From: Lysinibacillus sp. B2A1
GTDB lineage: Bacteria > Bacillota > Bacilli > Bacillales_A > Planococcaceae
Assembly (NCBI GenBank): GCA_002973635.1
Contig: CP027224.1
Span: 3,420,501-3,484,500, forward strand
Reading direction: 5' to 3'
Length of the DNA: 64,000 bases
The notes under the pieces are model-generated. The model was not told the origin of the DNA and did not search any database. It saw only the letters and a program-made list of their open reading frames with translations. Below, one piece after another: positions 2,581 to 22,753 of this stretch; position 1 is the first letter of the stretch; every line of letters starts with the position of its first letter. Both the position numbers and the translations under genes were made by a program.

Positions 2581-2951
2581 ACTCATCCAGCCAATTATTA
2601 ACTTCTTTCTTGCTAACAATGCTTTACCTTCTTTACTAATTAAATCAATAGGAAGAAACATCATTTTAAATAAGTTGGTGTTTCAAAAACTGACATAGGT
2701 TTTACATGAAGTCTCTTAACTGTATTTTGTCACTATAGTTCTTACTAGATTGGAAAATATCTTATGCATCTTAAGTTCATATTGAATTATTTGATCCTTA
2801 TCGAAGCTTGTCGTTATATTGAATAATTAATCAAATTTTTAATAGCTTATTGCATGTATATTTTCGTACAATATAAATACTAATAGCCTTTTTTGCAATA
2901 TATATACTATACGGCCTAATTATTGAAATTAATTAGGTGAGGAGGATATAC
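2581..2951. other. Gene-poor stretch before the defence-like operon
   Basis: No supported gene. A leftward open stretch of about 44 codons at 2540-2675 has no recognisable content. The last 100 bases are very AT-rich and probably hold the promoter of the following operon. Confidence 0.4.
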
Positions 2952-4081
2952 GTGGGTGACCAATATTTAGAAGAAATTGAACTACATTTTACAAAGAAAC
3001 ATTTTCCAGAGGTGTTTCAAGCATTTGCGGGCACAATGTTTGAGGCGCTGCACCATTATTTAATTGACGAATGGAAGGACGAAACGTTTTTAGTCGCATA
3101 CCAATTAGCTCAGACAAGCTTAGTAAAACAAGTGGCCGCAATTTTAGAGGAGTATGAGCCTTCTATGCCCTGTTTTCAGCTTTCTAATACTGAGCAACTT
3201 GATCTAGCGATAGATGCATTCATTGATTTAGGGGGATATGTGCACAATTTCAAAAAGATGTTGCACAGCTTTTAAGTGAGCATTTTCCTAAAAAATATCC
3301 AATGTTTTTTTATGATATAACGAGTCAATTACAGCCGCTTCAACAGGAAGTTGAAGCGTTCAAAGCAGAAATAGAGTTGTTGAAGGAAAAGCTTGAGAAG
3401 AAGGAAGAACATTTAGAGCACTATCGTCTTACAGCACAGGAGTTAAAAGTTGAAAAGAAACTGCTTATAGATCAGCAAGTGGAAACACAACACAATCTAA
3501 ATAAAGAGACTGAACGCTATCAACGCTTAAAAAAATCACATGATACGTTGGAACATACTATAAAAATATCGAATGAGAAAATAGAAGAAGAGCAAACAAA
3601 GCGGGAAAAAATTCAAACAGATTATATTGAGTTTCAAAAAAAGGCTCGAAATACGATTAGATTTTTACAAAGTAATCAAACAGAGACAACGACTGAGGCA
3701 AAGCATATAGGGTCTCAACAGCTGATAGAGCAAGTTAATGAATTAAGGAAGCAAAATACTGCGCTGCATCAGCAAAATGAAGCAATACGACGAGCAAGCA
3801 TTACGGATGCTAAAAGAATGTCTAGTTATAGTCAAACAATTCGGGACTTAAATGAGCAACAAAAAAAGCTATTGACGGAAATTGAAGTGTTAAAGAATCA
3901 GTTACAGTCAAAAAATGAAGCAATTAGTCAACTTGTGCAAAAAACAACAAACATGTCGCCACAAAAAAGTAGTGGTGCGAGCGAGCGAAAAGAAGATGAT
4001 ACGAAAAAACTACGGGAATTACTGAAAAAATATCGAAATGAAAATGCCGTGCTAAAGCGTAAGTTGAAGGGAGATTCATAG
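2952..4081 (+). CDS. Coiled-coil protein of the McrBC-like operon, frameshifted
   Basis: First gene of a five-gene operon. Translation from GTG 2952, 7-8 bases after a GAGGAGG site, gives an all-alpha N-terminal region of about 100 residues with no family I recognise. The frame then closes at 3275. The -1 frame is open across the break and continues as DVAQLLSEHFPKKYPMFFYD into about 260 residues of heptad-rich coiled coil. Adding one A to the run at 3252-3256 joins the two parts into one protein of about 376 residues. Either the gene carries a 1-base deletion, or the sequence has an indel error, or there is a frameshift at CAAAAAG. The stop is 1 base from the helicase start. The coiled coil suggests a scaffold role beside the coiled-coil NTPase four genes on; this is inference. 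Confidence 0.7.
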
Positions 4082-4082
4082 T

Positions 4083-7000
4083 ATGTATCGTGTGAAGAGC
4101 AATGGCTTAGATGTTCAATTATCTATCTATACAGAAAGTGAACAGAAGGAACATATTATTCAGAAGCAAGTGTTATTTCGAAAGGAACAGAGTCAAATTG
4201 TTGTCTATTGCAATGGGGAGAGAATTGGTGATGTTCGTATTCGAAAAGAAATCGCAACAATCCAGCATATCCTTGAACACCATCTACCGTATTATGCATT
4301 GGTGCAATCAATTAATAGGAAAATCGTGCAAATTTCTGTTGTAAGACCCACGGAAATTGTCACAGGAGTCGAAAAAATCGCTATTAATTTATCGAAATTA
4401 GATGGTTCATTAAATCGAGAATTGTATATATCAATGCCTCATAGCCCGTTTCCACATCAAATCGGTTTAGTTTATATTGCATATGATGAACAAAATAAGC
4501 GATATTACCTCTTCAGTAATGAACCAAAAAAAGGCTCAGCTAAAGTATTAGTACTCATATGGGAGCAGGATCAATTATTTGCGGTTGCAGAAGAGCCCAT
4601 TACGTATAAGCCAGAGGAGAAAAAACGTTTATTAAAAAAAGCAAAGTTGTTTGATACGATGCTTATCTTGCGTGATACGATACAGGGTGAGCAGCTTGAA
4701 ACGGAACTAAATTTCCATGAGCATTTTAGCTCTGTAGATAAATATTTAGATGCATGGAAGCAATATATGAACTATGAGCGAGATTTACTTACTCAAAAGC
4801 AACAACAATGTAAATTACTTCAATATAATGATTATGATTATGTATATGGTAAGCTAACGTTTTACTTAGAGGGAAAAAATGATATATCTGGCTGGCTCGA
4901 TCAGGTAGAACAAGTATCTGTTGAAATTCCGAGCAGTGAAGAGGCGTTACAGGTGGGAGTATTAAAATATATTAATGGATATAAATTAGAAGTCGATTTC
5001 ATGTTAGATGACACAGCAGATCGTCTTCGATTTCCGAAAAAAGGTAACTTGCAAGTGAGTACATTAATGAACGAAGTGGCACAACGTCGGCGTGATATAG
5101 CATTGCAAAAAACGATGGCAAGCTTATCGGTTATTTCTAATTTAGGTACATATTTAAGCGAGCCTGAAAAAGTACCACCAATGGGGGCTATTCATTACCG
5201 TTTCCCATCTGCTGATGTGCCGACCCTTGTAAATGGTCGTGATGCCGATATCCAGCAGCGACTAGCAATTGAAGCAGCATTGAATACAAATGATCTAGTG
5301 CTAATTCAAGGGCCACCAGGAACCGGCAAAACATCAGTAATTCAAACGATTATGAAAAGTTTAATTGCTTTAGGAATGAATGATATTTTACTAACATCAT
5401 ACCAGCATTTAGCGGTTGATAATGCAATGGAGGGGCTAATTGAGCATGGAATGTCTGCACATCGTTTTGGTGGCGAGAAATATGTTGAAAGCGAGCTGAA
5501 AACATATCGTCGACTTGTGAATGAAATGGCAAGTCGTGTAACATTTGATGATGTCGACATTCAACAAAACATGCCGTATTATGAGAAACTTTTGGAAGAT
5601 GTTCGTGATTTTTTAGCACAAGCTCCGTTTACACCAGCGACTTTGACGACACTACGTCAGTATATGGAAGGGCTTGAGGGAGATGAGGAGCTGCCAATTT
5701 CACTTATCTTAACCTTAGATGAACTATTAGCCTTATTGAAGGAAGAACAATATGCGGATGTCCATGTAACTGTAGACATTGACCCAATACTTCAATCGCA
5801 GTTTGACAAGTTGCCTAAAGCAGTAGCTGGAATTAGGAGTACAAAGGATGTAGAGCAATGGCAAGTATTTTTAAAGAACATTGCTCTCCTACAATCAAAG
5901 GAGCGACATAAGCAATGTGACATCTTAATAACAGACATTAAAAAGACACGCCAACAGCTCGTTATTCGTAAAGATAGTAAAGCGTTACAAGAAAACCTTC
6001 AGCAGAAATTAGATGAACTTGTTGTGCTCGTATCATACTTATTTACACAACAAGCCCCTACATCGTTTTCAAGCGATGAGCTAGTTGGGCAACTACAGAG
6101 GATTATTGTTGAGGTTGAGATGCTAATAGAGGAATCACAACAAGTCGTTGTACTGGCCGAGCAAGCAGTTATTTCAGAGTTTATGCGTCAAATTAAGGCG
6201 GATCCATTAGAACTTGCTAAATGTATTCGTCAATATGCACAAGTAAAGGGAACCACTTGTCAGCAAACCGTCGCACAACGTCATAGGCTGTATGATGTCA
6301 TTTTCGATGCGGTTATTATCGATGAGGCTGCACGTGCCAATCCATTAGACGTTTTAATTCCGATGACTCTCGGTAAAAAAGTCATTTTAGTCGGAGATCA
6401 TAAGCAGCTACCTCATATTTTAGAGCCAGCCTTTGAAAAGGAAGTCGATTTACCTCCAGATGAATTTGACAAAATGTATGCCCAAAGTCTATTTGAACGG
6501 TTGTATCAAAACTTAGCAGTTGGTAAAAAGGTGATGCTTAATAAGCAATTCCGTATGCACGAAGACATTGGTGAGCTTGTGAGCCAGCTTTTTTATCCAG
6601 AGGGCTTTACCATGGGCAGCCAGCTGGTGCATTACAAAATGATACTTCCTTATACAATGGCAAGCATTTAGCATGGATAGATGTATCATTAAGGGGACAG
6701 GGTGAGCAAGGACGTTATGTCAATGAACACGAAGTGGATGTATTGATTGAACAGGTGAAAAAGTTATTAAAAAGTAGTCCGCAATATAACGGTCATATTG
6801 GCATTATTTCATTTTACAATGAACAGCTTGTGTTGCTAAATAAAAAGCTGAAAAATGTGGGGCTTGAACAGGCTGTCCAAAGTGGAACGGTCGATGCATT
6901 TCAGGGGAAGGAGTTTGACATTGTATTCTTAACAACCGTACGAAGTAATCGTTATCAAGGCGAGGCGCGTGCACTTGGTTTCTTACGCTCACCAAATCGA

Positions 7001-7132
7001 TTTAACGTTGCTTTATCTCGAGCACGTAAGTTGATTGTTATCGTTGGGGATGCAAAAACGCTTTGCCATTCAAATATGTTCCAGCATGCTTATGATTATG
7101 TGAAGGAGAGAGGATATATTGAGCATTATTGA
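4083..7132 (+). CDS. UPF1/DNA2-like superfamily 1 helicase, frameshifted
   Basis: A large superfamily 1 helicase of the UPF1/NAM7 type (AAA_11 plus AAA_12 halves), about 1016 residues when joined. Visible motifs in order: Walker A QGPPGTGKTS near residue 411; an inserted helical region; Walker B VIIDEAARANP; motif III LVGDHKQLPHI; FRMHEDIG; then, after the break, motif V VDAFQGKEFDIVFLTT and motif VI NRFNVALSRAR. The first frame ends at 6671. The second frame reads NDTSLYNGKHLAWIDVS, a typical helicase stretch, upstream of its first ATG at 6734. One extra A in the run 6636-6639 restores a single protein. As sequenced, the product lacks motifs V and VI and should be inactive. UPF1-like helicases act on RNA or RNA/DNA, which fits an RNA-directed defence system. 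Confidence 0.85.
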
Positions 7133-8627
7133 TTTAACACGTACTCAGCGCACAATGCGTCAGCAAGATCAGCCCAATAGTTTGTTCGTTTATTATCCAG
7201 TTGCAGTTGTGCCAGTGGAATATTGGAGTGTACAAAAAATTGACCATAGCATAATTGCTCAAACACTCTTAAAGCTTGGGGATATCGCTCCTTTCCGACT
7301 AGATGAAGTATGTGAAAAGCTTGGTTTCCCAGTGGAATTTCATTTCATCGTTGATCAAGAAATTCAGCAATTATTAAAGGAGCAACAGCTTCAGGAGGTA
7401 ATGACTGGGAAATATAAAACAGCAAAAAAACAGGTAGCTGTTAGCTATGAATATAAAAAAGGTTACATGATGTATGATGAAATTCGAGGACAATTTTTTA
7501 CCTATATTCATGAAAAGGAACTGTTAATGAGTCATGATACTTACAATATGGAAATGCTAACCAGCAACATTCCACTTACACTTGAGTTGTATCAACAAAC
7601 GTCGTTTGAGACACTTCTGAAGCTTGCGGTCAATCAATTTAATCTATATCAAGAAAAGCGTTTTACAGAAGGAGTAGCCGATACAGACATTGTATTGTCT
7701 AGCCATCTTGAGGATGAAGTTAATGAAGAGATTAACACCATGATTCGTGTTGAAAAGCAGCCATACCCTTTTGTAAAACGTGGTTATATTGCTGTGCAGC
7801 TTACAGGGATGATTATGCAATCGCAAAGTGGTGAGCTGTATACGAAAGTGAGTGCCATTTCCCCCTTTACAGATGATCACTCTGTGCAGTTATATGAGCT
7901 GATTAAAGGCCAAGACGTTGGCGAGGAGGCAATTCGTTTAGTAGAGCTAATGGCAAAAGAAGCGGAATTGCAGAGTTTTGGCTCCTCTCCAAATGAGCAG
8001 CAAGATACACTTGCAAATATTGAAACGATGTTACAGGGAGCGCAAGTATCAGATGCCTTATATGAGTATTTACAAACGTGTGAACGCGATTATCTACGCT
8101 ATAAAAATGGCAATGGTGAAAAAGGAGATCGTGCAAGTAGCTTAAATACATTTGGTTTAATGTCGGAGGCACTATTACAGGAACATTTAGAGCCGTACAT
8201 TCAAATCGAGCCGATTCTAGTAAAGAAAAGCTGGTTATTAAATGGCCATGTGAATCGTAAGGCGCTAAAGGCAGACTTTTTTACAATTAGTGACCATATA
8301 CCACAAGCAATCTGGTGTAATCTTGAAAAACTTGTTGAAAAAATGAATCGATACGGTTCTATTCAAAATGTCCATTATTATGGAAGCCGTGACTACGTTG
8401 CCGTAATGTTAATAAGTGATTATTTAGGAGAAAAGAGTTTTTATGAAAAAGTCCTCCAGCACCCACAAGGATTAACATATGTCGAAGATATTGTCGTAAT
8501 TCGAAATAAGCTAGCAGGACATCATAGTGGCTGGTTAATGGAAATGCAAAATAAAAAATTCATAGAATTGTTTACAGAGCTACGTGAAAGCATGTATGCG
8601 TTTATTCGATTTATGGAGGAGAAGTAA
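7119..8627 (+). CDS. Uncharacterised 502-aa protein with C-terminal HEPN motif
   Basis: Third gene of the operon, starting at TTG 7119 after AAGGAGAGAGG and overlapping the helicase end by 14 bases, so it is translationally coupled. I do not recognise the full-length family. The N-terminal 90 residues look like a winged-helix fold (LLKLGDIAPFRLDEVCEKLG). The C-terminus contains VIRNKLAGHHSG, in which R-N-x4-H fits the catalytic motif of HEPN ribonucleases, within a helical segment (about residues 440-502) of the right size for the end of a HEPN domain. A toxic or effector RNase role is therefore a reasonable inference, not shown. The gene is intact, unlike the two before it. Confidence 0.75.
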   Translation: MSIIDLTRTQRTMRQQDQPNSLFVYYPVAVVPVEYWSVQKIDHSIIAQTLLKLGDIAPFRLDEVCEKLGFPVEFHFIVDQEIQQLLKEQQLQEVMTGKYKTAKKQVAVSYEYKKGYMMYDEIRGQFFTYIHEKELLMSHDTYNMEMLTSNIPLTLELYQQTSFETLLKLAVNQFNLYQEKRFTEGVADTDIVLSSHLEDEVNEEINTMIRVEKQPYPFVKRGYIAVQLTGMIMQSQSGELYTKVSAISPFTDDHSVQLYELIKGQDVGEEAIRLVELMAKEAELQSFGSSPNEQQDTLANIETMLQGAQVSDALYEYLQTCERDYLRYKNGNGEKGDRASSLNTFGLMSEALLQEHLEPYIQIEPILVKKSWLLNGHVNRKALKADFFTISDHIPQAIWCNLEKLVEKMNRYGSIQNVHYYGSRDYVAVMLISDYLGEKSFYEKVLQHPQGLTYVEDIVVIRNKLAGHHSGWLMEMQNKKFIELFTELRESMYAFIRFMEEK

Positions 8628-10628
8628 TTGGAAACAGAAATCATTTCACTACAAGAGCAGTTAGAGATGCTGCAGGCAGATTATGAATCTATGCTGAAGC
8701 TGTACGAAACCAGCAAAGCGACAGTCCATACACAACGTAAGCAAATTGCTATTTTAATGGAAGAAGCAGATGAGAGAGAAACGGAGGTAACAAACAAATA
8801 TAAAGATGAGCTCAAGGTTTTAAAAGGTAAGATGGAGGAGCTAAAGGAACAGCTCGAAGAACAACAGACAGATTATGAAAAGCAAACAAAGGCTTTGAAA
8901 CATGAACAGAAAAAACAGCTGGATTCGTTAGCAGAACAGCATGCTGAAGAGATGCGAGTATTGGAGGATACTGTAGTATCTCAGCAGGAAGCATTAACGG
9001 AAGTAAGTGATGAGCTGGATGCAGAACGAGAGGCATTCGAGCAAGAAAAGGCAATATTTAATATTGAGGATGCTCATCAAACAAAAATGGAGCTTGAACG
9101 TATACAGGAGCGTTATGCACAGCTTCGTCCATATGTTGACGAATTAGAGCGTACCAACAAACAGTTAAAAAATAACCTAGATGATGTAGCCTATATATCA
9201 GAAAACGTAACATTTTTACAGCAACAGCTACAACAAAAGCAGGAGCTGATACAACAATATAAAGAGGCAGCATTTCAATGGGAGCATTTACAGTCACTCC
9301 GTGATGAATATGATGAAATTTCAATACAAAATAAAGCAATCAAAGCTGAAAATTTGAAGCTGCGTGATTCGTTACAACAGCTTCGTATAGAGCTTGAGGA
9401 AAAACAGGAAAAGGCAGAAATCCTAGAGCATGCCGAACGACAGCGTGCATTTTACTTATATCGTACACGCAATTTAGAACGAGAAATTCAGCGTTATCAA
9501 AAGCGTGAACAAGAGGCAGTATCAGATGAAAATCGTGTATTTGAGAGCTTCCAGATGTTAATAGAAACTAGTCAAAAAACGCCTAACCAGGTAGATAATT
9601 ATCCAGGAGATCAAGTAATTAAGCAACGAATTATTGAGACAAGCGAAGCAGGAAACTATGAGTTTTCATTGGATATGGTAGAAGGATTTTTAGCAGCCAT
9701 GAGGAGTTCACGTTTTATTATTTTAAAGGGTTTATCTGGTACAGGAAAAACAAGCCTTCCCAAAATTGTTGCACACGCATTAGGCGGTGTATGTGAAACA
9801 ATTGCTGTACAGCCCAATTGGAAAAGCAAAACGGATTTAATTGGATTTTATAATCATTTCAATGAGCGCTTTATGCCAACACCTTTTACAGAGGAATTAT
9901 TTAAAGCACGCTTACCTGAGAATCGTGATAAGTTTTACTTTATTGTGCTTGATGAAATGAATTTAGCACGTGTGGAATATTACTTCTCAGACTTTAACTC
10001 AAAGTTAGAGTTGGAGGAATCGAAGCAAGTAATTGAATTGTTTGATACAATGGGGCGCACATCAGGCACATTATCAGAATATATTGATGGAGGCAATAAG
10101 CTGAAAATTCCTTCTAACGTATTCTTTATCGGGACAATAAATGAGGATGACTCTACATATACACTGAGTGACAAAATATATGATCGTGCACAGGTATTAG
10201 ATTTCCAAGCAGTATTAAGCGATAAAATTGGTAATATGGAAAAGGTGAAAGAGCATGCTAAAATGCCAGCAGTTAGCTTTGTAGGCTTTAAAAAGCAGCG
10301 TGAAGTAATTGAGGAACAAAATGTGGATCGTGAAATGCAGCGCATTGAAAAGGTATTGAGTATTTTAAGTGAAAACTTAGATCTTCAAATTGGAAATCGT
10401 CCACGCCGTCATATCCGTGCTTTCTTGCAGGCATATGCAGCAAACAATTGGAATAAGGATGTTGCGATTGATTTACAAATTGTTTCTAAAATCGTACCAA
10501 AAATTATGCCAAGCTATGACGATGCCTTTGTTGAAACAATGGATAAATTAGAGGGTGTAGTAGATACAATTCGCAAACAGTCGTTAGCGAAAAAAGCATT
10601 CCAAAAGGTGAAGCGAAATGCAAGATAG
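8628..10628 (+). CDS. Coiled-coil McrB-like AAA+ NTPase
   Basis: The first 310 or so residues are almost continuous coiled coil rich in E, Q, K and L. The C-terminal half is an AAA+ NTPase of the McrB (AAA_5, dynein-related) type: Walker A LKGLSGTGKTSLPK near residue 365, followed by PNWKSKTDLIGFYN, a family hallmark, Walker B FIVLDEMNLARVEYYFSDF, and sensor region FIGTINEDDSTYTLSDKI. McrB proteins form GTP- or ATP-driven rings that deliver a McrC partner to its target. An N-terminal coiled coil fused to McrB is characteristic of CoCoNuT-type (CnuB) proteins. It starts at TTG 8628, right after the upstream stop, with GGAGGAG upstream. The end overlaps the next gene (ATG inside the last codons). 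Intact. Confidence 0.88.
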   Translation: METEIISLQEQLEMLQADYESMLKLYETSKATVHTQRKQIAILMEEADERETEVTNKYKDELKVLKGKMEELKEQLEEQQTDYEKQTKALKHEQKKQLDSLAEQHAEEMRVLEDTVVSQQEALTEVSDELDAEREAFEQEKAIFNIEDAHQTKMELERIQERYAQLRPYVDELERTNKQLKNNLDDVAYISENVTFLQQQLQQKQELIQQYKEAAFQWEHLQSLRDEYDEISIQNKAIKAENLKLRDSLQQLRIELEEKQEKAEILEHAERQRAFYLYRTRNLEREIQRYQKREQEAVSDENRVFESFQMLIETSQKTPNQVDNYPGDQVIKQRIIETSEAGNYEFSLDMVEGFLAAMRSSRFIILKGLSGTGKTSLPKIVAHALGGVCETIAVQPNWKSKTDLIGFYNHFNERFMPTPFTEELFKARLPENRDKFYFIVLDEMNLARVEYYFSDFNSKLELEESKQVIELFDTMGRTSGTLSEYIDGGNKLKIPSNVFFIGTINEDDSTYTLSDKIYDRAQVLDFQAVLSDKIGNMEKVKEHAKMPAVSFVGFKKQREVIEEQNVDREMQRIEKVLSILSENLDLQIGNRPRRHIRAFLQAYAANNWNKDVAIDLQIVSKIVPKIMPSYDDAFVETMDKLEGVVDTIRKQSLAKKAFQKVKRNAR

Positions 10629-12711
10629 TGTTCAGCTACTGTATAAAAATCGTTGGTTACAAGAGGCCTACTTGTCATATAAAGGTGAGCATCTGGATCA
10701 TCCATATCAATACGATTTTAGGTTAACATGGGGCGCGCAGTGTATCCCACAAAAAGTCCGCATTAACAATCAAATATTGCATACATTTTTTGATGATCGT
10801 CATATCTATGAATTTACTTTGCCGTTTATGCAGCCAATCGTTACGGTCGAACTACAGTATATTTTGGATAAAGAGATTTTATACGAATCATTTAACATTA
10901 TCGGTACTAAAACGTTTAAAGTTGTTCCTGAAATGCTACACGATGTGCAAACTTTATATAGGGACTGGAAAGATAATTTTAAAACAGCGTATGACATCTA
11001 TGAGGAGAAATATATAGAGTTTGCCGACTTTTATACAAAAAAAGAAAAGCAAGATTTATGGAGCCAGCTAAAGAAAGAACTTGAGGAGTGTGGAGAACAT
11101 TCACCTTATTGGTTTTATCATTATCGTCAGGACATTTTAAAACACTTGCAATTCATTACTCGAAAACCGAAGCTAAAGCTAGAGAGTGAGCATTATTTAG
11201 TAAATGCGGAGGAATTAGACGTTGTGACACCACAAACTGTTCAGTATTTTATGAAAGATACAACGACATGGCGCCGTACTACTTTAAATCGACCAGTGCC
11301 TCAACAATTATTAAAGGAGTCGTATATTGAATCTCTTGATGTACACGAAAATCGTTTCGTCTTTACATTTGCCTATATGCTAGAAAAAAATGTACGTCAA
11401 TTTTTAAAGCTGTTACGTGAGCACATTCAAAACATTCAACGTGAAATGAACAATACAAACAGTCTAATTGAACTCAATATTTTACGGGAAGAGGCAGAGT
11501 GGAAAAAGCTAGATGTTGAACAATACCTTGAATTTTTTAACTGTGTCTATAGGCAAATGAAGCCACTTCATGCATTATTGCGTGAGGCACTGCGTTTATT
11601 CAGGGGACTTCAAAAACTACATGGCTACATTCAACCAAATCAGGTGCTATTATATAACCGAGATTACAAGACACTATACAAGCTATACAATGAGTTTCTT
11701 AATAAAGGGGAACCAAAAGAGCAAAAATGGCATGATCATATTGATTATCAGACGTATTATGTAGATAGTGTATTTATTGATATTCTTCAAATGATTGTGG
11801 AAACGAAGCTATTTACAGTTGCGAGTGAGCCGTTGAAACTTCCGATTGGTGATTATTTGGATGATTATATTTTTCCACGTAAGGATATGGTCGTAGAATT
11901 TACACACTCAGATGTTTTGCTTCGTGTAACACGTGTTCAAAATGAAAATTTTGAAGCGGAACGGTCTGTTATTTTACTCGAAATGATTAGACATGATATT
12001 AATAAAGTAATTACGTATCGCCTAGTTCCAACTTTTGTACAGTTCCATGAGGGGTTAAGTAAGGCTGAACTCGAGGGACTATATAAATATCCAGTAAATG
12101 GTGTATCAACATTTATTATTCATCCATCCAAGGAAGAGGATTATAGTAAGCAACTAACATATAATGAACTACATCGCTTATTTAATCTAGGAATGAATTT
12201 TTTAGAGGATGAACATTATGAACAATTTGGAAATATGAAATACGGTGCATTTTCATCCGCTGTAAATATGGCTGAAAATATTAAACGGTTATTACGTCTA
12301 CAACTCTTTACGTTAGGTGTTCGTCATGTGTGCTTTATTTGTGGAAACCACGGTAATGCAATAAAGCAACAAAAGGGTGAAGAAGAGTATGTCTGTTCAA
12401 ATGTGAGATGTAAAGTTGAATGGGGAGTACGTTGCTGTAGTAAATGTGGAACTGAGATATACAAAATGCAGAAAAAAATAGAAGCAACCTTTTTAACCGA
12501 AGAGCAAATTGAAGAAATAACAGCAAAAAGAGATATTGCCTGGTTATTAGACGCAGAAAAGCGTAATGGTGATTTTGCCTTAGCTAATTTTTGTGAAAAT
12601 GCACATCTAGGTAATAATTTCTTTGCGATTTGCCCAAACTGCGGCGATTGCCAGCAAAAAACAAAAAAAAATCGTCTTTGTCGACGCTGTGATGTAAAGT
12701 CTATGTTGTAA
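10618..12711 (+). CDS. DUF2357 / McrC-like protein with C-terminal zinc ribbons
   Basis: Last gene of the operon, overlapping the NTPase by 11 bases. The first 250 residues match the DUF2357 layout (an N-terminal beta-rich part followed by helical segments such as SYIESLDVHENRFVFTFAYM), which is typical of McrC-type partners of McrB GTPases. The family normally carries a PD-(D/E)xK nuclease after this; I could not find a clear D..ExK signature here. The C-terminal 130 residues carry cysteine pairs CFICG, CSNVRC, CCSKCG, CPNCG and CRRCD, that is two or more zinc ribbons likely to bind nucleic acid. Normal role would be the effector/nuclease of the complex. A terminator-like hairpin follows at 12780. 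Confidence 0.8.
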   Translation: MQDSVQLLYKNRWLQEAYLSYKGEHLDHPYQYDFRLTWGAQCIPQKVRINNQILHTFFDDRHIYEFTLPFMQPIVTVELQYILDKEILYESFNIIGTKTFKVVPEMLHDVQTLYRDWKDNFKTAYDIYEEKYIEFADFYTKKEKQDLWSQLKKELEECGEHSPYWFYHYRQDILKHLQFITRKPKLKLESEHYLVNAEELDVVTPQTVQYFMKDTTTWRRTTLNRPVPQQLLKESYIESLDVHENRFVFTFAYMLEKNVRQFLKLLREHIQNIQREMNNTNSLIELNILREEAEWKKLDVEQYLEFFNCVYRQMKPLHALLREALRLFRGLQKLHGYIQPNQVLLYNRDYKTLYKLYNEFLNKGEPKEQKWHDHIDYQTYYVDSVFIDILQMIVETKLFTVASEPLKLPIGDYLDDYIFPRKDMVVEFTHSDVLLRVTRVQNENFEAERSVILLEMIRHDINKVITYRLVPTFVQFHEGLSKAELEGLYKYPVNGVSTFIIHPSKEEDYSKQLTYNELHRLFNLGMNFLEDEHYEQFGNMKYGAFSSAVNMAENIKRLLRLQLFTLGVRHVCFICGNHGNAIKQQKGEEEYVCSNVRCKVEWGVRCCSKCGTEIYKMQKKIEATFLTEEQIEEITAKRDIAWLLDAEKRNGDFALANFCENAHLGNNFFAICPNCGDCQQKTKKNRLCRRCDVKSML

Positions 12712-12808: not shown

Positions 12809-13666
12809 TTGTTCCTCAAACGGGTCATATTCTTGAGGAACGTTTTCGTTCACTTTAAGGAAACATTTATCGATGGGTCACTTTCCTCGGTTGTGTATGT
12901 GATATGTAGTACATTAATGATATCTAATATCATATTTGCAATTGTCTATCTTACTCATACAGGTTTTCATGATGGTGAAGAACTTACGGTCCTCCTACCG
13001 CAAATTAGCTTTTTATCATTATTATTCTTATATATCGCAAGGTTGAAAGATTCCCTGAATCATTTTCTTGATAGCCAGAATGAAAAAGAGGCAGAGGACA
13101 ATAATAAATTCATTTTATTTCTCTACAGAATATCTAATAACTATCAAAGGATGTCAAAAATATGAGCAATATGTTTATTTCCAATTTTGGTCATCATCCA
13201 ATTGATTTTGGTCCTGTTTGGACAACGACCAGATAGCTTTATCCGGGTGTTCCTTGAGACAAGCTCTTTCAACTATTCAAATATCCCTGCGCCAAAACCA
13301 GTGATAATAGAGGGTGACGGGCATTATTTGTGTACGGTCTCTGCTAAAGGGCATAAAAACTTGGTCAAACCGAGCAGAGCTGGCATTAGAAGAGGACAAA
13401 GAATTCCCGTGAACCGCCAGCTGCTGATTGCTAACGCATTTGAGAACATTCTAGAACAATATATGCCAACCTTCCATAAAGTCATCCGTAACTTTTACAA
13501 TCGATATGGCTATCCAATTAGTAGGCATATCAATTCAAAATGGTCCGCAGATATCATGTATCACTTAATGAAACCTTTAGAATGGTTCTTTCTTGTTGTG
13601 CTATATACAGTTGACAAAAAACCAGAAGACAGAATTCATATACAATATAGTGAGTTGAGAAAGTGA
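12809..13666 (+). pseudogene. DUF6688-type membrane protein broken by an in-frame TGA
   Basis: Two open stretches, 12809-13165 and 13187-13666, lie in the same frame and are separated only by TGA at 13163-13165. Reading through gives SKI-stop-AICLFPILVIIQLILV, which continues a hydrophobic segment without a gap. A TGG (Trp) to TGA change explains it. The second half carries the conserved part I associate with DUF6688 (PDSFIRVFLETSSFNYS, then a GDGHYLCTVSAKGHK segment and a C-terminal WSADIMYHLMKPLEWFF). The first half has two to three membrane segments. The 5' end begins abruptly inside the upstream terminator with only a TTG and no good ribosome binding site, so the gene is probably also truncated at the start. 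Function of the family is unknown. Confidence 0.7.
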
Positions 13667-13841: not shown

Positions 13842-15210
13842 GGCTCAACACCAAAATCTGTTCTTGCTAAAAAAGAATACAAAAAAACATCTGTATCCGC
13901 TAGAGTTGAGAGTACGACCAAACAACACAGCGAGGTATACAGATGCACTCTTATTCTATCAAGGATTTATGGGATTTACCAGAACTAAAAATTATCGCAA
14001 CCACTAAAATAAATCACCAAATTTTCATTGATGTCATGCCAATTAAATCTAAACAGGCCTGTCCCATTTGTGCATTTGAAAATACGACTCGTCGCGGAAT
14101 CGGCTATGTTCGAAAAGTGCGTCATCTCGAAGCGTTTGGTTGCCCTGTTTATTTGAATTTACCTGCCATTCGTATGTCATGTACAGCTTGTTTTGCACAT
14201 TTTGTATGGGCATATGAGTGTGTGGCACCGAAAAAACGATACACAAAGGCATTTGAAGCCACGCTGCCGAAGCAGGCAATCGGCTCTACCATCACGCATA
14301 CATCACGTGTGGCAAACACACCCGCTACAACCGTTGCGCGTATCGTCCGTTCATGGAAAATGGAGGAAGCCACACGTGTCCAAAAAATTTGTCAGAAAAA
14401 AGCATTGGCGTGTCACAATCTCGTGCTAGGCATTGATGATTTTGCCATTCGTAAAGGGCATACGTATAACACGGGTCTCCACGATTTACGTGGTGGCACA
14501 TTTTTAGATGTTATTCCTGGACGAAGAATCGAGGAATTACACGCCTATTTCAATACACAATCTACTCTTTGTGCGCTAAAGCCTGTCGCGATTGTCATGG
14601 ATTTGGCAAAGGCCTATCATACGTTTGCGAAAAAGATGTATCCGGAAGCGATTCGTATTGCGGATCGTTATCATGTCAATCGTTACGTAACTGAAGCGCT
14701 TCAAGCCGTACGAAAATCCGTTCAAAAGCAGCTAGCACCGTATGCTAAAAAGGACCTTAAGCAACACTTCCGAATTCTTGGTAAACGACGTGATCAATTG
14801 AAGAATGATGAAAAAAATAGCCTACACCGACTGCTTCAATACGCTGAAATCCTCCATCAAGTCTACAGTTGGAAAGAAGCCTTTATCGAATGGTACGACT
14901 GTAGCTCCACGTATGAACTGGCGAAAAAAGGCTTCGAACGTTGGTTGACGCAAGGTACTACCATCAAGCATCCAGCCGTGGAATCCTGTCTGTTAACGAT
15001 GCGCAATTGGCAAGAAGAAATCTGTAATTATCATCAATTACGCTTTACTAATGCGGCAGTAGAAGGGAAAAATAATCTCATTAAAGCGCTGCAAAGACGC
15101 CATTTTTTCACGCGCAATCCGCAGCACTATAAAGAGGCAATTTTACTAGAATGCAATGCCGAATGGATTCAGTATGGCTCTTAGTCAAGCACATGTTTTG
15201 GTGAAGAGCC
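13842..15210 (+). mobile_element. ISL3-family insertion sequence, copy 1
   Basis: The element is bounded by imperfect terminal inverted repeats: GGCTCAACACCAAAATCTG on the left and the complement of GGCTCTTCACCAAAACATG on the right, giving about 1369 bp. Its single gene is an ISL3 transposase. The copy at 36734-38102 is the same length, in reverse orientation, and differs in the protein by one residue only. The 8 bases left of this copy (ACATTTTT) do not match the 8 bases on its right (ACAAAACA), but they are the exact reverse complement of the 8 bases left of copy 2. Confidence 0.92.
13943..15184 (+). CDS. ISL3-family transposase
   Basis: A 413-residue DDE transposase. The N-terminal zinc-binding part has CPIC and CTAC pairs (about residues 36-80). 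The catalytic core includes LGIDDFAIRKGHTY, the first acidic region of the family, VAIVMDLAKAYHTFAKKMYP with the second, and VEGKNNLIKALQRR with the final glutamate. Full length for the family and apparently intact. A glycine in VIPGRRIEE is arginine in copy 2. Confidence 0.95.
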   Translation: MHSYSIKDLWDLPELKIIATTKINHQIFIDVMPIKSKQACPICAFENTTRRGIGYVRKVRHLEAFGCPVYLNLPAIRMSCTACFAHFVWAYECVAPKKRYTKAFEATLPKQAIGSTITHTSRVANTPATTVARIVRSWKMEEATRVQKICQKKALACHNLVLGIDDFAIRKGHTYNTGLHDLRGGTFLDVIPGRRIEELHAYFNTQSTLCALKPVAIVMDLAKAYHTFAKKMYPEAIRIADRYHVNRYVTEALQAVRKSVQKQLAPYAKKDLKQHFRILGKRRDQLKNDEKNSLHRLLQYAEILHQVYSWKEAFIEWYDCSSTYELAKKGFERWLTQGTTIKHPAVESCLLTMRNWQEEICNYHQLRFTNAAVEGKNNLIKALQRRHFFTRNPQHYKEAILLECNAEWIQYGS

Positions 15211-15420: not shown

Positions 15421-16725
15421 ATGGGGATTTTCAGTAAACTACTTAAGAGTAAAAAGAAAGAAGTAGAACTTGGTAAGCAGAAAAAGTTTGAAGGCGTGAA
15501 TGCTAACCAAAAGCAAGTTTCAGAAAATACAAACTCAAATAAATTAGAATACACAGGTGGTCTAGGACTTTCAATAGGACTTAACAATGAAGGAGATATA
15601 AATTTAACATCATTACCCGTAGGAGTATCAACCGGAAGTACTGCAAAAGATTTTTATGTGTATGAATGGTTTATTAAAGAAACAGGAGAAATATTCTATG
15701 TTGGTAAAGGACGTGGTAATCGTTTTAAGGAGTTCCATCAGCGAGCATACGAAGCTGAAAAAATTCGAAAAAATTTCGAAACAGATAATCGTTTTGTTGC
15801 GATGGGGTTAACTGAAGATGAAGCGATTGAATTAGAAAGCAAAGAGATAACTCGTATTTTAAATGAAACCAATGATAGATTAACGAATCGTCAAATCCCC
15901 TTGTTTACAAAACGTGGTAATGGTTTTGATCGAAGTCCAAGTACAACAACAATTCGGTTTGAAACCGCTCCAGTTTTATTTGCCAGTGAAATAGAAGAAC
16001 ATTATTTTGGTAAACAGCACCGAGCTTTTGATCAAGTTCATTACGATAATCTTAAAGCTGTAGCATTTATTACACGAAGTATGCGAGATGAAATTAGTGT
16101 TATATACGCTAGTAATTTAGAAAAATATAAAGATGAGGTTACAAACACGTTAATAGCTAATGGGAATAAGGTATTGAAAAGTAAGTTTGCTAAGTCCATA
16201 ACAGCATGGATATACATTGGTGATGATTACGTCACTAATTACAATAATGATCAAGAGAAAGCCTTAAATGAATTAGGACGTCAAATTCCAACGTATCATA
16301 TGATAGATGTATGGAAACATTTAAAGAATAAGTTCGAGGAAATTGCATCTGTTTCGAATGAGGAACCAATAATCAACGCTATTCATAATCGTGTACCTTT
16401 AAATGAAATTAAAAATCTAAATAATTGGGAGAGAGGCTTTGATAAAGGTTATCCTTTTTACGAAGAAGGTGATAAAGAGCGCAAATCTGGCAACATTTTG
16501 GGCGCTATAAATTTATTCGATAAGGCACGTTTTAACGGATATAATGCTCCTGCCTTGTACAGTTCTTATGCTATGGCTTATCGTAAAATAAAAGATTATG
16601 ATAATGAAATCGCAATTCTTGATGAAGCAATTGAACGTATGAAATCCGAACAAGGTAATTATGAAACACGTATTATGGAATTTAACGAGCGCCGTGCAAA
16701 AGCATTAGCATTAAAGTGTAAGTAA
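15421..16725 (+). CDS. GIY-YIG-like nuclease domain protein
   Basis: A 434-residue protein. After a low-complexity N-terminal 75 residues it has a GIY-YIG-like core: FYVYEWFIKETGEIFYVGKG gives the two tyrosine motifs, followed by GNRFKEFHQRAYEAEKI with the conserved arginine and an acidic ESKEI segment for the metal-binding glutamate. The middle part is unassigned. The C-terminal 90 residues look like TPR-type helical repeats (AINLFDKARFNGYNAPALY and a second copy). GIY-YIG domains cut DNA in homing, repair and restriction enzymes. Its job here is unknown. It lies alone, with AAGGAAGTGG before the ATG, next to an ISL3 copy, so it may be accessory cargo. Confidence 0.65.
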   Translation: MGIFSKLLKSKKKEVELGKQKKFEGVNANQKQVSENTNSNKLEYTGGLGLSIGLNNEGDINLTSLPVGVSTGSTAKDFYVYEWFIKETGEIFYVGKGRGNRFKEFHQRAYEAEKIRKNFETDNRFVAMGLTEDEAIELESKEITRILNETNDRLTNRQIPLFTKRGNGFDRSPSTTTIRFETAPVLFASEIEEHYFGKQHRAFDQVHYDNLKAVAFITRSMRDEISVIYASNLEKYKDEVTNTLIANGNKVLKSKFAKSITAWIYIGDDYVTNYNNDQEKALNELGRQIPTYHMIDVWKHLKNKFEEIASVSNEEPIINAIHNRVPLNEIKNLNNWERGFDKGYPFYEEGDKERKSGNILGAINLFDKARFNGYNAPALYSSYAMAYRKIKDYDNEIAILDEAIERMKSEQGNYETRIMEFNERRAKALALKCK

Positions 16726-16960
16726 CTAAAACAGCCAAACACTTGCTTAGACTTAATAAACTGTACTACGTATTCATGTCTTATAGGTGTCTTGAGTTCA
16801 TTTTTTAAAATTGTTTGCCCAATATTTTCAAAAGAAATAAACACCAGTTTTCTTTCTTTTCATTATCTATCCTAGTAATCCAATTAGATTAGACTAGAAA
16901 AAGTAATTACACTATTCTGAAATGTGTGTTATAGTAGGAACATAATTGAATATTGTGTAA

Positions 16961-17112
16961 GACTTGGTGCCAAATGAAAGTTTGGCTTAAAAGGGAAGTC
17001 GGTGTAAATCCGACGCTGTCCCGCAACTGTAATTCGGAGCAAATCACAAATGCCACTGGGAAACTGGGAAGGCTGTGATGCGTGTTGATGAAAAGCCAGG
17101 AGACCTGCCAAT
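16961..17112 (+). ncRNA. Cobalamin riboswitch upstream of metE
   Basis: The conserved core is clear: GGTGCCA, AAAAGGGAAGTCGGTG, AAATCCGACGCTGTCCCGCA, CTGTAA, then GCCACTGGG and the B12 box AAGCCAGGAGACCTGCC at 17093-17109. Binding of adenosylcobalamin should favour the terminator at 17248, switching off the downstream B12-independent methionine synthase when B12 is plentiful. Confidence 0.95.
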
Positions 17113-17247
17113 TTCTAGTACACACCAAATACCTACGTGGAAATAGGTGGTGAAAGGTGACCAAATAGGCACTGTGCGATAATTAATGAATTATGCGAAA
17201 GTAAGTATTTTTTTCGTAATGTTTTAGCATTAGTATTTTCAACATCC

Positions 17248-17303: not shown

Positions 17304-19601
17304 ATGAACTATACAAGCACACTCATTGGTTATCCATATATAGGGGAGAATCGAGAATGGAAAAAAGCATTAGAAGCATTTTGGCGCAATGAACTTTCTG
17401 AAGAGGATTTTGAGGAAAATTTAAAGAAAATTCGTTTGGCTAGAATCGAAAAGCAATTACAACTTGGTATTGACATGGTGACAGTGGGAGACTTTACGTA
17501 TTACGATAGAATGCTAGATATGGCATTAATGTTTGGTTTAGTTCCAGAACGCTTCAACTGGAAAGGTGGAAAAGTAGATTTAGCCACTTACTACAGTGTA
17601 GCAAGAGGAAATAAAACAGCAGTAGCAAGTGAAATGACGAAATGGTTTAATACAAACTATCACTATATTGTTCCTGAATATGAGGGACAATCCTTACAAC
17701 TAACAGAAAACCAAGTGTTAGCAGACTTTTTAGAAGCAAAGGAAGCGTTTGGTATTATTGCGAAGCCGACTTTGATTGGTCCCTATACTTTTTATAAATT
17801 ATCGAAAGGGTACAACAAGTTAACACAGGTTGAATACTTATTAGCATTAATACCTCTCTATACGCAAGTATTAAAAGAATTAGTGGATGCAGGAGCAACT
17901 TGGATTCAATTAGAAGAGCCGGCCCTTGTGACAACCCTTGATTCGGCAGAAATCAAGCTTGTAAAAGAAATTTATGACCAATTAGCCGTTGCAGTTCCAG
18001 AGGCTAAGGTAATGCTGCAAACTTATTTTGAAGCATTATGTGCCTATGAAACATTAATTACTTTACCTGTACAAGGTTTTGGCTTGGATTTTGTTCATGG
18101 TCATAAAGAAAATATGGCGTCCCTTCGTCAATATGGTTTCCCTCAAGATAAAGTATTGGCAGTTGGGATTGTCAATGGACGTGATATTTGGCGTTCCAAT
18201 TTAGCAGAGGTAAACGCTACGATTCAGGCTATTGAGCATTTAAGCAATGCGTCAGAGCTATGGATTCAACCATCAAGCAATTTACAACACGTACCGATTA
18301 CAACTGCTCTAGAAAGTGAGATTAACCCTGTTCTAAAGCATGCCTTAGCCTTCGCGGATGAAAAAATCGTTGAAATTATTAAGCTGACAAAATATAGACA
18401 AGATAAAGAAGGTAACTTACAACACAATTTTTCAGAAAGCATGAAGGCAATTGAGGCTCTGAAAAATCATCCAATCCGTCAAAATAAGGAAATCCAACAA
18501 GCCATTCAAACCGTGTCAACGCAAGATTTTGAAAGACATCGTGAGTTTACTCAACGTCAAAAATTGCAACAACAAGCTCTAGCGTTACCACTTTTCCCGA
18601 CGACAACAATCGGAAGCTTCCCACAATCAGATGAAGTGAAAAGGAACCGTAATGCTTGGCGTAGAAAACAATTATCGAATGAAGCCTACGAAACGTTTAT
18701 TGAGCAGGAAACAAAACGCTGGATTACGATACAAGAGGAACTTGATATTGATGTTCTAGTTCATGGAGAATTTGAACGTACAGACATGGTCGAGTACTTT
18801 GGGGAAAAGCTGACTGGTTTTGCATTTACTGAAAAAGCATGGGTCGTTTCCTACGGCTCACGTTGTGTTAAGCCACCAATTATTTATGGAGATGTTTCAT
18901 GGGCTTCACCAATTACTGTGAAAGAGTCAGCCTATGCTCAAAGCCTAACAACACGCTTTGTAAAGGGAATGCTAACAGGACCAGTGACAATATTAAATTG
19001 GTCATTTGTGCGAGATGATTTGTCACGTAAAGATGTTGCTTATCAAATTGCATTGGCACTTCGTAAAGAGGTTGAAGCATTAGAAAATGCGGGAATCTCC
19101 ATTATTCAAGTGGATGAGCCTGCTCTAAGAGAAGGTTTACCGCTTCGAAAAGAAGAATGGGGAGCTTATTTAGATTGGGCTGTCAATTCCTTCAAGCTTG
19201 CTACTTCTGGTGTTAAAGATGAAACACAAATTCATACGCATATGTGCTACTGCGAATTTAACGATTTCATTGAGCCTATTAGTGCTCTAGATGCAGATGT
19301 GATATCCATAGAAACATCAAGAAGCCATGGAGAGTTAATTTCTTCACTACAAGTACAACCTTATCAAAAAGGTATTGGCTTAGGTGTTTATGATATTCAT
19401 AGTCCTCGTGTACCGAGCAAAGAAGAAATGCTCACTATTATGAGAGATAGTTTGCAGGTGCTGGACCGTCATCAATTTTGGGTGAATCCCGACTGTGGCT
19501 TGAAAACAAGAAAAGAAACAGAAACTGTTGCGGCATTAGCTAATATGGTTGCTGCAACAAAAACATTGCGCCAGGAAGTACAACAATCTATTTCAAGATA
19601 G
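17304..19601 (+). CDS. metE: Cobalamin-independent methionine synthase MetE
   Basis: 5-methyltetrahydropteroyltriglutamate-homocysteine methyltransferase transfers the methyl group of methyl-tetrahydrofolate to homocysteine without B12. At 765 residues it has the usual two-barrel architecture. The catalytic C-terminal barrel shows FPTTTIGSFPQSDEVK, the substrate and zinc region HTHMCYCEFND (His and Cys zinc ligands) and NPDCGLKTR with the last zinc cysteine. The N-terminal barrel has GYPYIGENREWKKALE. It starts at ATG 17304 after AAGGGGA. A cobalamin riboswitch plus terminator lies directly upstream, which is the classic arrangement: MetE is made when B12 is short. Confidence 0.97.
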   Translation: MNYTSTLIGYPYIGENREWKKALEAFWRNELSEEDFEENLKKIRLARIEKQLQLGIDMVTVGDFTYYDRMLDMALMFGLVPERFNWKGGKVDLATYYSVARGNKTAVASEMTKWFNTNYHYIVPEYEGQSLQLTENQVLADFLEAKEAFGIIAKPTLIGPYTFYKLSKGYNKLTQVEYLLALIPLYTQVLKELVDAGATWIQLEEPALVTTLDSAEIKLVKEIYDQLAVAVPEAKVMLQTYFEALCAYETLITLPVQGFGLDFVHGHKENMASLRQYGFPQDKVLAVGIVNGRDIWRSNLAEVNATIQAIEHLSNASELWIQPSSNLQHVPITTALESEINPVLKHALAFADEKIVEIIKLTKYRQDKEGNLQHNFSESMKAIEALKNHPIRQNKEIQQAIQTVSTQDFERHREFTQRQKLQQQALALPLFPTTTIGSFPQSDEVKRNRNAWRRKQLSNEAYETFIEQETKRWITIQEELDIDVLVHGEFERTDMVEYFGEKLTGFAFTEKAWVVSYGSRCVKPPIIYGDVSWASPITVKESAYAQSLTTRFVKGMLTGPVTILNWSFVRDDLSRKDVAYQIALALRKEVEALENAGISIIQVDEPALREGLPLRKEEWGAYLDWAVNSFKLATSGVKDETQIHTHMCYCEFNDFIEPISALDADVISIETSRSHGELISSLQVQPYQKGIGLGVYDIHSPRVPSKEEMLTIMRDSLQVLDRHQFWVNPDCGLKTRKETETVAALANMVAATKTLRQEVQQSISR

Positions 19602-19687: not shown

Positions 19688-19784
19688 TACATTCCTTCTT
19701 AGATTTTTATTATATTCAGAAAATAAAATTGACGTGATTAATCGAGCATGTTATGTTTAATACTAATTTCATAGCAATTATTAC

Positions 19785-19955
19785 AAGTTTGAGTGAAGAA
19801 TCTTTCATTCAATTAAAAGGAAAATGGGTGGAAATCCCATGCTGTCCCGCAGCTGTAAATGAGGAGCTTTGTTTCGAATACTACTAAGTGATTACTTAGG
19901 AAGGTGGAGCAAAATGTTGATTCATAAGCCAGTATGCCTGCTTGTAAGAAGATTC
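19785..19955 (+). ncRNA. Second cobalamin riboswitch, upstream of metal ABC transporter
   Basis: Core elements are present in order: AAAAGGAAAATGGGTGGAAA, TCCCATGCTGTCCCGCAGCT, GTAAATGAGGAGC, ACTTAGGAAGG and the B12 box AAGCCAGTATGCCTGC at 19925-19940. The peripheral P2 region differs from the metE copy, so it is not a simple local duplication. It is followed by a terminator at 20018. Confidence 0.93.
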
Positions 19956-20017
19956 ATTGATGATCTACGAAAGATAGGGAGATGGATGAAGACTTACTTA
20001 TTTGTATGTTTTTCTAT

Positions 20018-20047: not shown

Positions 20048-20110
20048 ATGCCTTCTCTTCTTTTTCAAGTAGATTCTTTTTGTACCACGAATAGAGATAG
20101 GAGACAGGAA

Positions 20111-21724
20111 ATGAAATTGACAAAGTATATACTTCCTTTTGTGCTGATGTTGACTTTCAGCATACTTGCAGGTTGTACAAGCGCTGATCAAGAAAAGGGA
20201 AAGACAGCAACAAAGCAAACTGATGAAAAAATGATAACGATTGGATGGCCTTTAGATGTCGGTCCATTAAACCCTCATACATATTTACCTAATCAAATGA
20301 CTGCCCAAGCAATGGTCTATGAATCTTTGGTGGAATACAACGATGACGGAACTATAACCCCGAAACTAGCAGAAAGTTGGGATATTTCAGAGGATAAAAC
20401 TACGTATACTTTTCATTTAAGAAAAGATGTTACATATTCAGATGGAACAGCTTTTAATGCTGATAATGTAATTCGTAATTTCGATGCCGTATTAGCGAAT
20501 CGGGACATGCATTCTTGGATGGGTATGGTCAACCATATGAAAGAGGTTGTGAAAGTGGATGATTATACCATTCGTTTGCAATTGGATGAACCTTATTATC
20601 CTGTCTTAAATGAGCTTGCCTTTGTAAGGCCATTCCGTTTTTTAGGGGATGATGGATTCCCAGCTGGAGATGCAACGCAAGATTCTATCAAGGCGCCTAT
20701 TGGAACAGGTCCATGGGTATTAACTGAATACAAAAAAGATGAATATGCACTATTTAATCGTAATGAAAACTATTGGGGTGAAAAACCTCGCGTAGAACAA
20801 ATTAAGGTGAAGATTATTCCTGATTCCGAATCGATTTCGTTGGCATTTGAAAACGAAGAATTAGATTTAATTTATGGCCGTGGCATTATTAGTTTAGATA
20901 ACTATACGTATTTAAAAGATAGTGCTAAATACAAAACTGCTACCTCTGAACCATTGTCTACGAAAGCACTGCTATTCAATACGCAGTCAGGTCCATTAGC
21001 TGAATTAAAAGTACGTCGAGCCATTCAATATGCTATCAATAAGGAGCAAATGGTTGACAGTATTACACATGGAACAGAAAAAGTAGCTAACACACTATTC
21101 TGGGATGCAATTCCATATGCCAATATTGATTTAACGCCAATCTTGTATAATCCAGAAAAAGCGCAACAGCTACTAGATGAAGCAGGTTGGACGTTACAGA
21201 AGGGCGAACAAATTCGTTCGAAAAACGGACAACCCTTATCATTAGATTTAATCTATATCGCAACAGATGCGATCCAAAAGCCAATGGCTGAGTTAATGCA
21301 AGGTGAACTAGCAAAAATAGGGATACAGTTGAATTTAGAAGGGGCAGATGTAATGGTGGGCCTTCAAAAATTAATGGATGATCAGGTGGATATTAATTTC
21401 TGGCGAACAAATGGACCCCCAACTGATCCTCACAGCTTTGCAAATGAATCAGCCACACCAAATGCTAGTGGTGTGTATGAGGCGAAATTAGGCTTACCAA
21501 ACGCTAAAGAAATCGATACGAAAATTCATCAATTATTAGTGGGTACAGATGAAGGGGAACGAGTGCAGCTTTATACGGACATCTTAACCATGTTCCATGA
21601 TCAGGCACTATTCTACCCTATATCTTACGAAACAAACAATGTGATTTATCAACCTTATTTGAAGGATTTTGCGCCACGTGCATCTGAATATGATATTCCC
21701 TATGCACAAGTGGGAAAAGAGTAG
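20111..21724 (+). CDS. NikA/CntA-type metal-binding lipoprotein of ABC transporter
   Basis: Extracytoplasmic solute-binding protein of the SBP_bac_5 family, 537 residues, with a lipoprotein signal (lipobox LAGC). I start at ATG 20111 because AGGAGACAGG precedes it; an upstream ATG at 20048 overlaps the terminator tail. The sequence follows the nickel/cobalt subgroup: GWPLDVGPLNPH, DGTAFNADNVIRNFD, GTGPWVLTEYKKDEYALFNR, and LAFENEELDLIYGRG. Downstream genes supply two permeases and two ATPases, a complete importer. Because a cobalamin riboswitch precedes it, cobalt is the most likely cargo, possibly bound to a metallophore as in CntA; nickel or a peptide cannot be excluded from sequence alone. 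Confidence 0.88.
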   Translation: MKLTKYILPFVLMLTFSILAGCTSADQEKGKTATKQTDEKMITIGWPLDVGPLNPHTYLPNQMTAQAMVYESLVEYNDDGTITPKLAESWDISEDKTTYTFHLRKDVTYSDGTAFNADNVIRNFDAVLANRDMHSWMGMVNHMKEVVKVDDYTIRLQLDEPYYPVLNELAFVRPFRFLGDDGFPAGDATQDSIKAPIGTGPWVLTEYKKDEYALFNRNENYWGEKPRVEQIKVKIIPDSESISLAFENEELDLIYGRGIISLDNYTYLKDSAKYKTATSEPLSTKALLFNTQSGPLAELKVRRAIQYAINKEQMVDSITHGTEKVANTLFWDAIPYANIDLTPILYNPEKAQQLLDEAGWTLQKGEQIRSKNGQPLSLDLIYIATDAIQKPMAELMQGELAKIGIQLNLEGADVMVGLQKLMDDQVDINFWRTNGPPTDPHSFANESATPNASGVYEAKLGLPNAKEIDTKIHQLLVGTDEGERVQLYTDILTMFHDQALFYPISYETNNVIYQPYLKDFAPRASEYDIPYAQVGKE

Positions 21725-21732
21725 TAAAAGCA

Positions 21733-21772: not shown

Positions 21773-21798
21773 CATAGGATTAAGTAGGAAGTGACTAC

Positions 21799-22752: not shown

Positions 22753-22753
22753 A

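Follow-up and report, generated by a model that had tools for sequence, protein, structure and literature searches.

Near the start of a 64,000-nucleotide stretch from Lysinibacillus sp. B2A1 (contig CP027224.1, positions 3,420,501 to 3,484,500; the whole stretch is called the window), five co-oriented genes occupy positions 2952-12711. Judged from its sequence, the operon is a CoCoNuT-type relative of McrBC, in which four predicted proteins match the CnuH-CnuE-CnuB-CnuC core. The gene order is CnuA-like, CnuH, CnuE, CnuB and CnuC. Gene ends overlap or abut, with the start of CnuE overlapping the end of CnuH and CnuE adjoining CnuB, and ribosome-binding sites can be recognised by eye. An earlier note on this DNA had proposed five overlapping or abutting genes here, which are indeed co-oriented coding units. 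It mentioned no break in any of them, but not all five are intact. In this genome as assembled (one contig, 5.51 Mb), tblastn with the proteins of relatives finds genes 1 and 2 frame-broken, and genes 3 to 5 have uninterrupted frames of 502, 666 and 697 amino acids (aa) respectively. The features of the operon are listed below; for gene 1, GTG 2952 was chosen as the start by eye, on account of its ribosome-binding site.

2952..4081, + strand: gene 1, CnuA-like; an open reading frame (ORF) at 2937-3275 plus 3302-4081 in another frame; broken
3233..3257, + strand: frame-change interval of gene 1, where tblastn with the relatives' CnuA switches frame
4083..7132, + strand: gene 2, CnuH, a UPF1-type superfamily 1 (SF1) helicase; pieces 4083-6671 and, in another frame, 6734-7132; broken
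about 6590..6640, + strand: frame-change interval of gene 2, from tblastn with the relatives' CnuH and a three-frame reading
7119..8627, + strand: gene 3, CnuE; predicted winged helix-turn-helix (wHTH) at ~42-105 and C-terminal HEPN-like domain at ~293-501; open
8502..8522, + strand: HEPN-type motif R462-N463-x4-H468 of CnuE; invariant in 4/4 family members
8628..10628, + strand: gene 4, CnuB; N-terminal coiled coil fused to a McrB-type GTPase; open
9729..9752, + strand: Walker A motif GLSGTGKT of CnuB; invariant in 4/4
10140..10151, + strand: NxD signature of CnuB, N505-E-D507 followed by D; GTINEDD/GTINEDE in 4/4
10618..12711, + strand: gene 5, CnuC; DUF2357 McrC-like protein with C-terminal zinc ribbons; open
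12331..12690, + strand: zinc-ribbon cysteines C572 to C691 of CnuC; twelve invariant in 4/4

The family members compared here were found by searching the same bacterial family (261 genomes) with CnuB; 44 of these genomes have a match at E <= 1e-20. Only four, the window's genome included, carry a CnuB of at least 52% identity, and the operon is common to all four. A survey of gene neighbourhoods, suggested as a check by the earlier note, finds the five genes together and intact in two relatives. In Caryophanon latum (G040, locus L033) the proteins CnuA, CnuH, CnuE, CnuB and CnuC measure 608, 1010, 496, 649 and 706 aa, and in G164 (L034) they measure 489, 1013, 497, 658 and 714 aa. In Kurthia huakuii (G052), CnuA reaches the end of contig C20 and its apparent tail opens contig C38, ahead of CnuH-E-B-C. 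The gene order is conserved although the CnuE of the relatives is only 29-35% identical, which argues that the arrangement is more than chance. As references we used five plasmid loci, from Rhodoferax, Deinococcus, Nostoc, Pseudanabaena and Polaromonas. Their order is TerY-P genes, helicase, a protein of 479-547 aa, a coil-GTPase of 788-813 aa and a protein in the CnuC position, annotated as DUF2357 in three of the five. The TerY-P annotation comprises a VWA gene in all five, PP2C in four (not Nostoc) and an adjoining kinase in four (hypothetical in Deinococcus).

Comparing family profiles with those of the references by hhalign yields matches for all four core proteins: 100% and E 5e-104 for CnuH, 100% and E 9e-61 for CnuB, 99.4% and E 5.7e-21 for CnuC, and 97.3% and E 2.7e-11 for CnuE, the last alignment spanning 430 columns, with the HEPN motif at its end. 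The CnuH family alignment contained the intact relatives and the two window pieces as separate rows. In CnuB, residues 1-320 are heptad-periodic (z 6.0, 0/500 shuffles) and the GTPase domain is not (z 0.1). An NxD instead of an NxxD GTPase signature marks the CoCoNuT branch, according to section 7 of PMC11090510. Pfam places AAA_11 (9e-32) and AAA_12 (2.9e-29) in the CnuH pieces, so that helicase domains are kept in both. The intact CnuH of the relatives is 1010-1020 aa long, and all four sequences have an insertion after Walker A of 289-300 residues between HLAVDNA and DEAARAN.

CnuC matches DUF2357 (PF09823) at E 6e-9. Its invariant cysteines (C572, C575, C593, C598, C607, C610, C659, C672, C675, C678, C688 and C691) fall within the last 126 residues. 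Not a single D, E or K is invariant in residues 401-503 across the four sequences, and CnuC is therefore without a conserved PD-(D/E)xK triad. This fits the inactivated nuclease of Type II described in section 9 of PMC11090510. A degenerate D/ExK at MKYG was considered and dropped, since by eye the block seems to lie past the nuclease region. The absence of a conserved triad also bears on a reading of the locus as mainly a DNA-acting type IV restriction system, in which CnuB and CnuC would bind modified DNA and the helicase would translocate DNA. CnuB and CnuC are, after all, homologues of McrB and McrC, and single-stranded DNA is a further substrate of UPF1-like helicases (PMC11090510, section 9). 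However, with the triad not conserved, we consider this reading unlikely.

Gene 3, which the earlier note had left as an unrecognised family, is a divergent CnuE as judged from profile and structure predictions, with a wHTH and a single HEPN-like domain. Its RNx4H motif near the C-terminus is the sole R-x4/5-H in the protein and aligns with the HEPN motif of the reference CnuE, to which the protein is 16% identical in the profile alignment. The AlphaFold2 model (mean pLDDT, a per-residue confidence measure, of 76.8) finds Csm6 and RnlA as structural matches. Sequence searches of the PDB with CnuE, CnuC and the CnuH N-terminus returned nothing meaningful.

Gene 1 encodes a separate coiled-coil protein, heptad-periodic with z 6.3 (0/500 shuffles); the values for CnuA of the relatives are z 11.9 and 6.7. 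Ahead of the coil lies an N-terminal domain of ~115 residues that covers 2952-3275 and continues in the second frame. Its model has four helices at modest confidence (pLDDT 71.4), and comparison with the PDB gave no match of weight, the best having E 1.0 and prob 0.41. We do not label it PYD/CARD-like, as a CARD appears only at E 9.7 and prob 0.02. No REC domain was seen by eye in the CnuA-like protein. The N-terminal domain is found in 4/261 family genomes, the same four that have CnuE; the window's own match is weaker (4e-5, query residues 92-135, past the frame break). The protein database adds two further relatives, 86% and 95% identical to the CnuA of G164. N-termini of Type I-B CnuA were sought for comparison, and the whole upstream gene was present in 2/15 loci.

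Taken together, two coiled-coil proteins (one fused to a McrB-type NTPase), a UPF1-like helicase, a DUF2357 McrC-like protein with zinc ribbons and a protein ending in a HEPN motif were all foreseen by the earlier note and are recovered here. So is the CoCoNuT class, which is indicated by the NxD signature, the coil-GTPase fusion, DUF2357 with zinc ribbons, the UPF1-type helicase and the wHTH-HEPN-like effector. The N-terminus of the first gene, which that note did not recognise as a family, has no convincing PDB match. The note's suggestion of a possible new variant gains from this gene, with its own N-terminal domain, and from the missing TerY-P triad.

In distribution, the operon is rare. 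CnuE occurs in 4/261 family genomes, 1/32 of the genus and 1/398 of a class sample, and the single matches in the genus and class samples are the window's own genome. A contig scan with the CnuB alignment found only Kurthia huakuii and Caryophanon latum, both among the four, and scans of viral contigs with CnuE and CnuB gave no match. A tblastn search of phage records with CnuB returned two unannotated records that cover part of the protein at 32-34% identity. Of 398 genomes sampled across the phylum, 40 match CnuB at E <= 1e-30; apart from the window's genome, the highest score is 162 bits, compared with 1152 for the window. By these low scores they are distant NxD GTPases, and we rejected them as members of the clade. 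So far, the clade appears small and is seen here only in one family of Bacilli. Such rarity argues against a housekeeping operon for RNA surveillance, as does the position of the operon in a variable region beside an SCO1-like gene. A UPF1-like helicase, a HEPN RNase and zinc ribbons would suit RNA quality control too, but we give this explanation very little credence.

The SCO1-like gene, named by eye, lies directly to the left of the operon and has matches in 32/32 genomes of the genus. Similarity of the close relatives G014, G024 and G031 to the window ends at about 2393-2432. In G014, which has the closest SCO1-like protein of the 32, the next matching block after this gene corresponds to window 33.7-35.4 kb, and the operon therefore sits in a variable region. 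This continuation, the two frame breaks and the restriction of CnuE to 1/32 species of the genus are what one would expect if the locus were a dead remnant in a decaying region, with three open genes hitchhiking. Just downstream, moreover, a DUF6688-family gene is truncated and split, and an ISL3 transposase follows. On the other hand, CnuE, CnuB and CnuC have kept their motifs in frames that are open over their full 502, 666 and 697 codons, and the protein database holds a single CnuE cluster of 98% identity with 12 member sequences (queried with one sequence and with the alignment). Frame changes can also be sequencing errors, though in stretches at >=90% identity to G014 (n=2) there are zero frame-breaking gaps within the listed ORFs. 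This comparison speaks mildly for genuine breaks in genes 1 and 2. Programmed frameshifting was rejected, since the relatives encode CnuA and CnuH each in a single frame. With evidence on both sides, we rate a dead remnant as slightly more probable than the opposite. Because the helicase and the coil protein are frame-broken, the system is probably inactive in this strain. The CnuH break, if real, would disable it here, and the still open CnuE, CnuB and CnuC would be explained if the breaks are recent.

To place the clade among CoCoNuTs, we rely on a GTPase tree of 68 rows, from which duplicate loci and the short rows L058, L067, L070 and L084 were excluded and in which the long branches L079, L076 and L083 were flagged. 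The locus studied here and those of three relatives form a clade with support of 100/99. Sister to it (98/97) are the five references and L007 from G154, all typed by ourselves, and one locus typed I-B (L078) and two typed III-B branch elsewhere. G154 belongs to the same family and carries a Type II-like CoCoNuT preceded by TerY-P (L098 884-13130), in which by eye VWA, PP2C-like and kinase-like genes stand ahead of H-E-B-C; its helicase and GTPase are confirmed by Pfam. Forms with and without TerY-P thus exist in one bacterial family. After the L098 locus comes a 775-aa coil-like protein. By eye, neither the window nor the relatives show a TerY-P gene next to the operon, and queries with the VWA and kinase proteins of L098 at E 1e-5 found none in the window's genome (G000), G164 or G052.

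Comparing the operon with Type II CoCoNuTs as described in PMC11090510 (Bell et al. 2024) reveals much in common: a UPF1-like helicase CnuH, a CnuE of wHTH and one HEPN-like domain, a coil-GTPase CnuB with NxD, a DUF2357 CnuC with zinc ribbons and without a conserved PD-(D/E)xK triad, the H-E-B-C order with overlapping frames, and the sister place in the GTPase tree next to self-typed references. The differences are the lack of an adjacent TerY-P, the extra CnuA-like gene upstream, and a CnuB of 637-666 aa here as opposed to 788-813 aa in the five references. The same source describes TerY-P as very frequent in Type II, not core. A separate coiled-coil protein is a point in common with CnuA of Types I-B and III-B. 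The I-B protein begins with a PYD/CARD-like region, ends with a REC domain and is encoded in operons of CnuA, CnuB and CnuC, whereas CnuH and CnuE are present here. The III-B protein is given as a coil alone, whereas here a helical N-terminal domain precedes the coil; the paper reports that TerY-P is never found in III-B. By eye, no further operon gene fits CnuD, and a separate wHTH-HEPN-like CnuE is present instead.

The clade may be a distinct CoCoNuT subtype, in which CnuA with a new N-terminal sensor or adaptor domain would replace the TerY-P phosphorylation switch controlling the helicase and HEPN RNase; we rate this as somewhat less probable than not. If true, CnuA and TerY-P would be mutually exclusive, interchangeable control modules across CoCoNuTs, with CnuA in I-B, III-B and the present clade and TerY-P in II and III-A. 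Alternatively, the locus could be one of the Type II exceptions without TerY-P that the CoCoNuT authors already noted, the extra coil gene being an unremarkable accessory. That two of the relatives, Kurthia huakuii and Caryophanon latum, are public genomes speaks for this. Yet sections 8 and 9 of PMC11090510 assign a CnuA to Types I-B and III-B alone, the same 4/261 genomes have both the CnuA domain and CnuE, and the clade stands apart in the tree from the TerY-P-preceded Type II-like system of the same family (G154/L098). We therefore view an accessory exception as possible but rather doubtful. Among the papers listed by our literature searches, we found no description of the present variant.

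Several named systems overlap with the operon in part. PDC-M26 is a named candidate of PADLOC only; its PDC-M26A model matches the CnuB studied here (1.7e-53) and also those of L098 and L072. MkoA of Mokosh, likewise from PADLOC, matches the gene 2 helicase (6e-62). The effector of Mokosh is PLD-type, but no PLD family is among the Pfam matches listed here. Druantia is a tested antiphage system. In PMC12458937, Druantia I and II are called 'Type IV CoCoNuT' and encode an inactivated CnuB homologue, unlike the operon described here.

Overall, we consider it likely that the operon encodes an RNA-directed, probably abortive antiphage CoCoNuT of a HEPN-bearing, Type II-like branch, with CnuA in the place of TerY-P, and that it is probably inactive in this strain. 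In the mechanism we envisage, CnuC and the coil-GTPase CnuB would sense infection, probably via RNA or ribosomes, and serve as a switch driven by GTP. CnuH would then engage RNA and activate the HEPN ribonuclease of CnuE, whose RNA cleavage would either clear the phage or stop the cell through dormancy or death. The probable role of CnuA is to organise or gate the complex via its coil and N-terminal domain, in place of the TerY-P kinase-phosphatase triad.

A number of points weigh against this interpretation. The references were typed as Type II-like from their gene content and not from the CoCoNuT authors' labels, and there is no Type III-A member among the tree rows; a plasmid search for Type III-A references at E 1e-40 retrieved the same five loci only. 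For the N-terminal ~190 residues of CnuH, hhalign detects no relationship with the SPB-RTL region of the references (prob 0.4%); in PMC11090510, Type II CnuH is described with an N-terminal SPB OB-fold and an RTL domain, and CnuC with an immunoglobulin (IG)-like N-terminus. CnuE matches the HEPN fold to a moderate degree (E 0.042 in Foldseek, with none at E 0.001), and helical bundles score middling Z in the structure tool. G040 has a weak TerY-like pair on another contig (VWA 2.4e-12, kinase 2.0e-17), and an action of TerY-P in trans is conceivable in that genome. Assembly errors may account for the frame breaks. In the part of the flanks that was scanned (13 ORFs of the window downstream of the operon by Pfam, three by PADLOC), the sole PADLOC hit was a weak one to PD-T4-3 (3.7e-4). 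Lastly, among the papers listed by our literature searches, none reports experiments on a Type I-III CoCoNuT, and function therefore rests on prediction.

CoCoNuTs are a large class of predicted RNA-targeting defences, and in the present clade they take a compact form, with five genes and no kinase-phosphatase triad, of which Caryophanon latum, among others, has an intact copy. As such, it offers a convenient minimal system for asking what role CnuA plays and whether a McrBC-type GTPase can use a UPF1-like helicase to trigger a HEPN RNase.

Beyond the operon itself, we noted further features around these loci. In G164 (L034 1-2739), a 229-aa membrane-like protein overlaps the end of CnuC; the next protein, 679 aa or longer, reaches the locus edge and has weak helicase/AAA matches only; no counterpart of these genes was seen after CnuC in Kurthia. 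The DUF6688-family pseudogene of the window consists of pieces at 12809-13165 and 13187-13666, with the first ~100 model positions gone, and the ISL3 transposase after it lies at 13943-15184. A plasmid megablast with the region matched a transposase only. The protein at 15421-16725, which carries the weak PD-T4-3 match (3.7e-4), also has weak TPR matches. Two cobalamin riboswitches lie further downstream, one at 16948-17126 upstream of a MetE-like protein at 17304-19601 (named by eye) and one at 19768-19959 upstream of a peptide/nickel-type ABC transporter at 20048-23560. Upstream of the window (L036 13401-16511), a sodium:solute symporter gene is apparently split by an inserted ORF (by eye). 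Elsewhere in the same genome (G000:C1:4447812-4451538; L099 6813-10539), a second McrBC-like pair with the NxD motif NIDETT sits among transposase-like and integrase-like ORFs and an HNH-like gene, as judged by eye.

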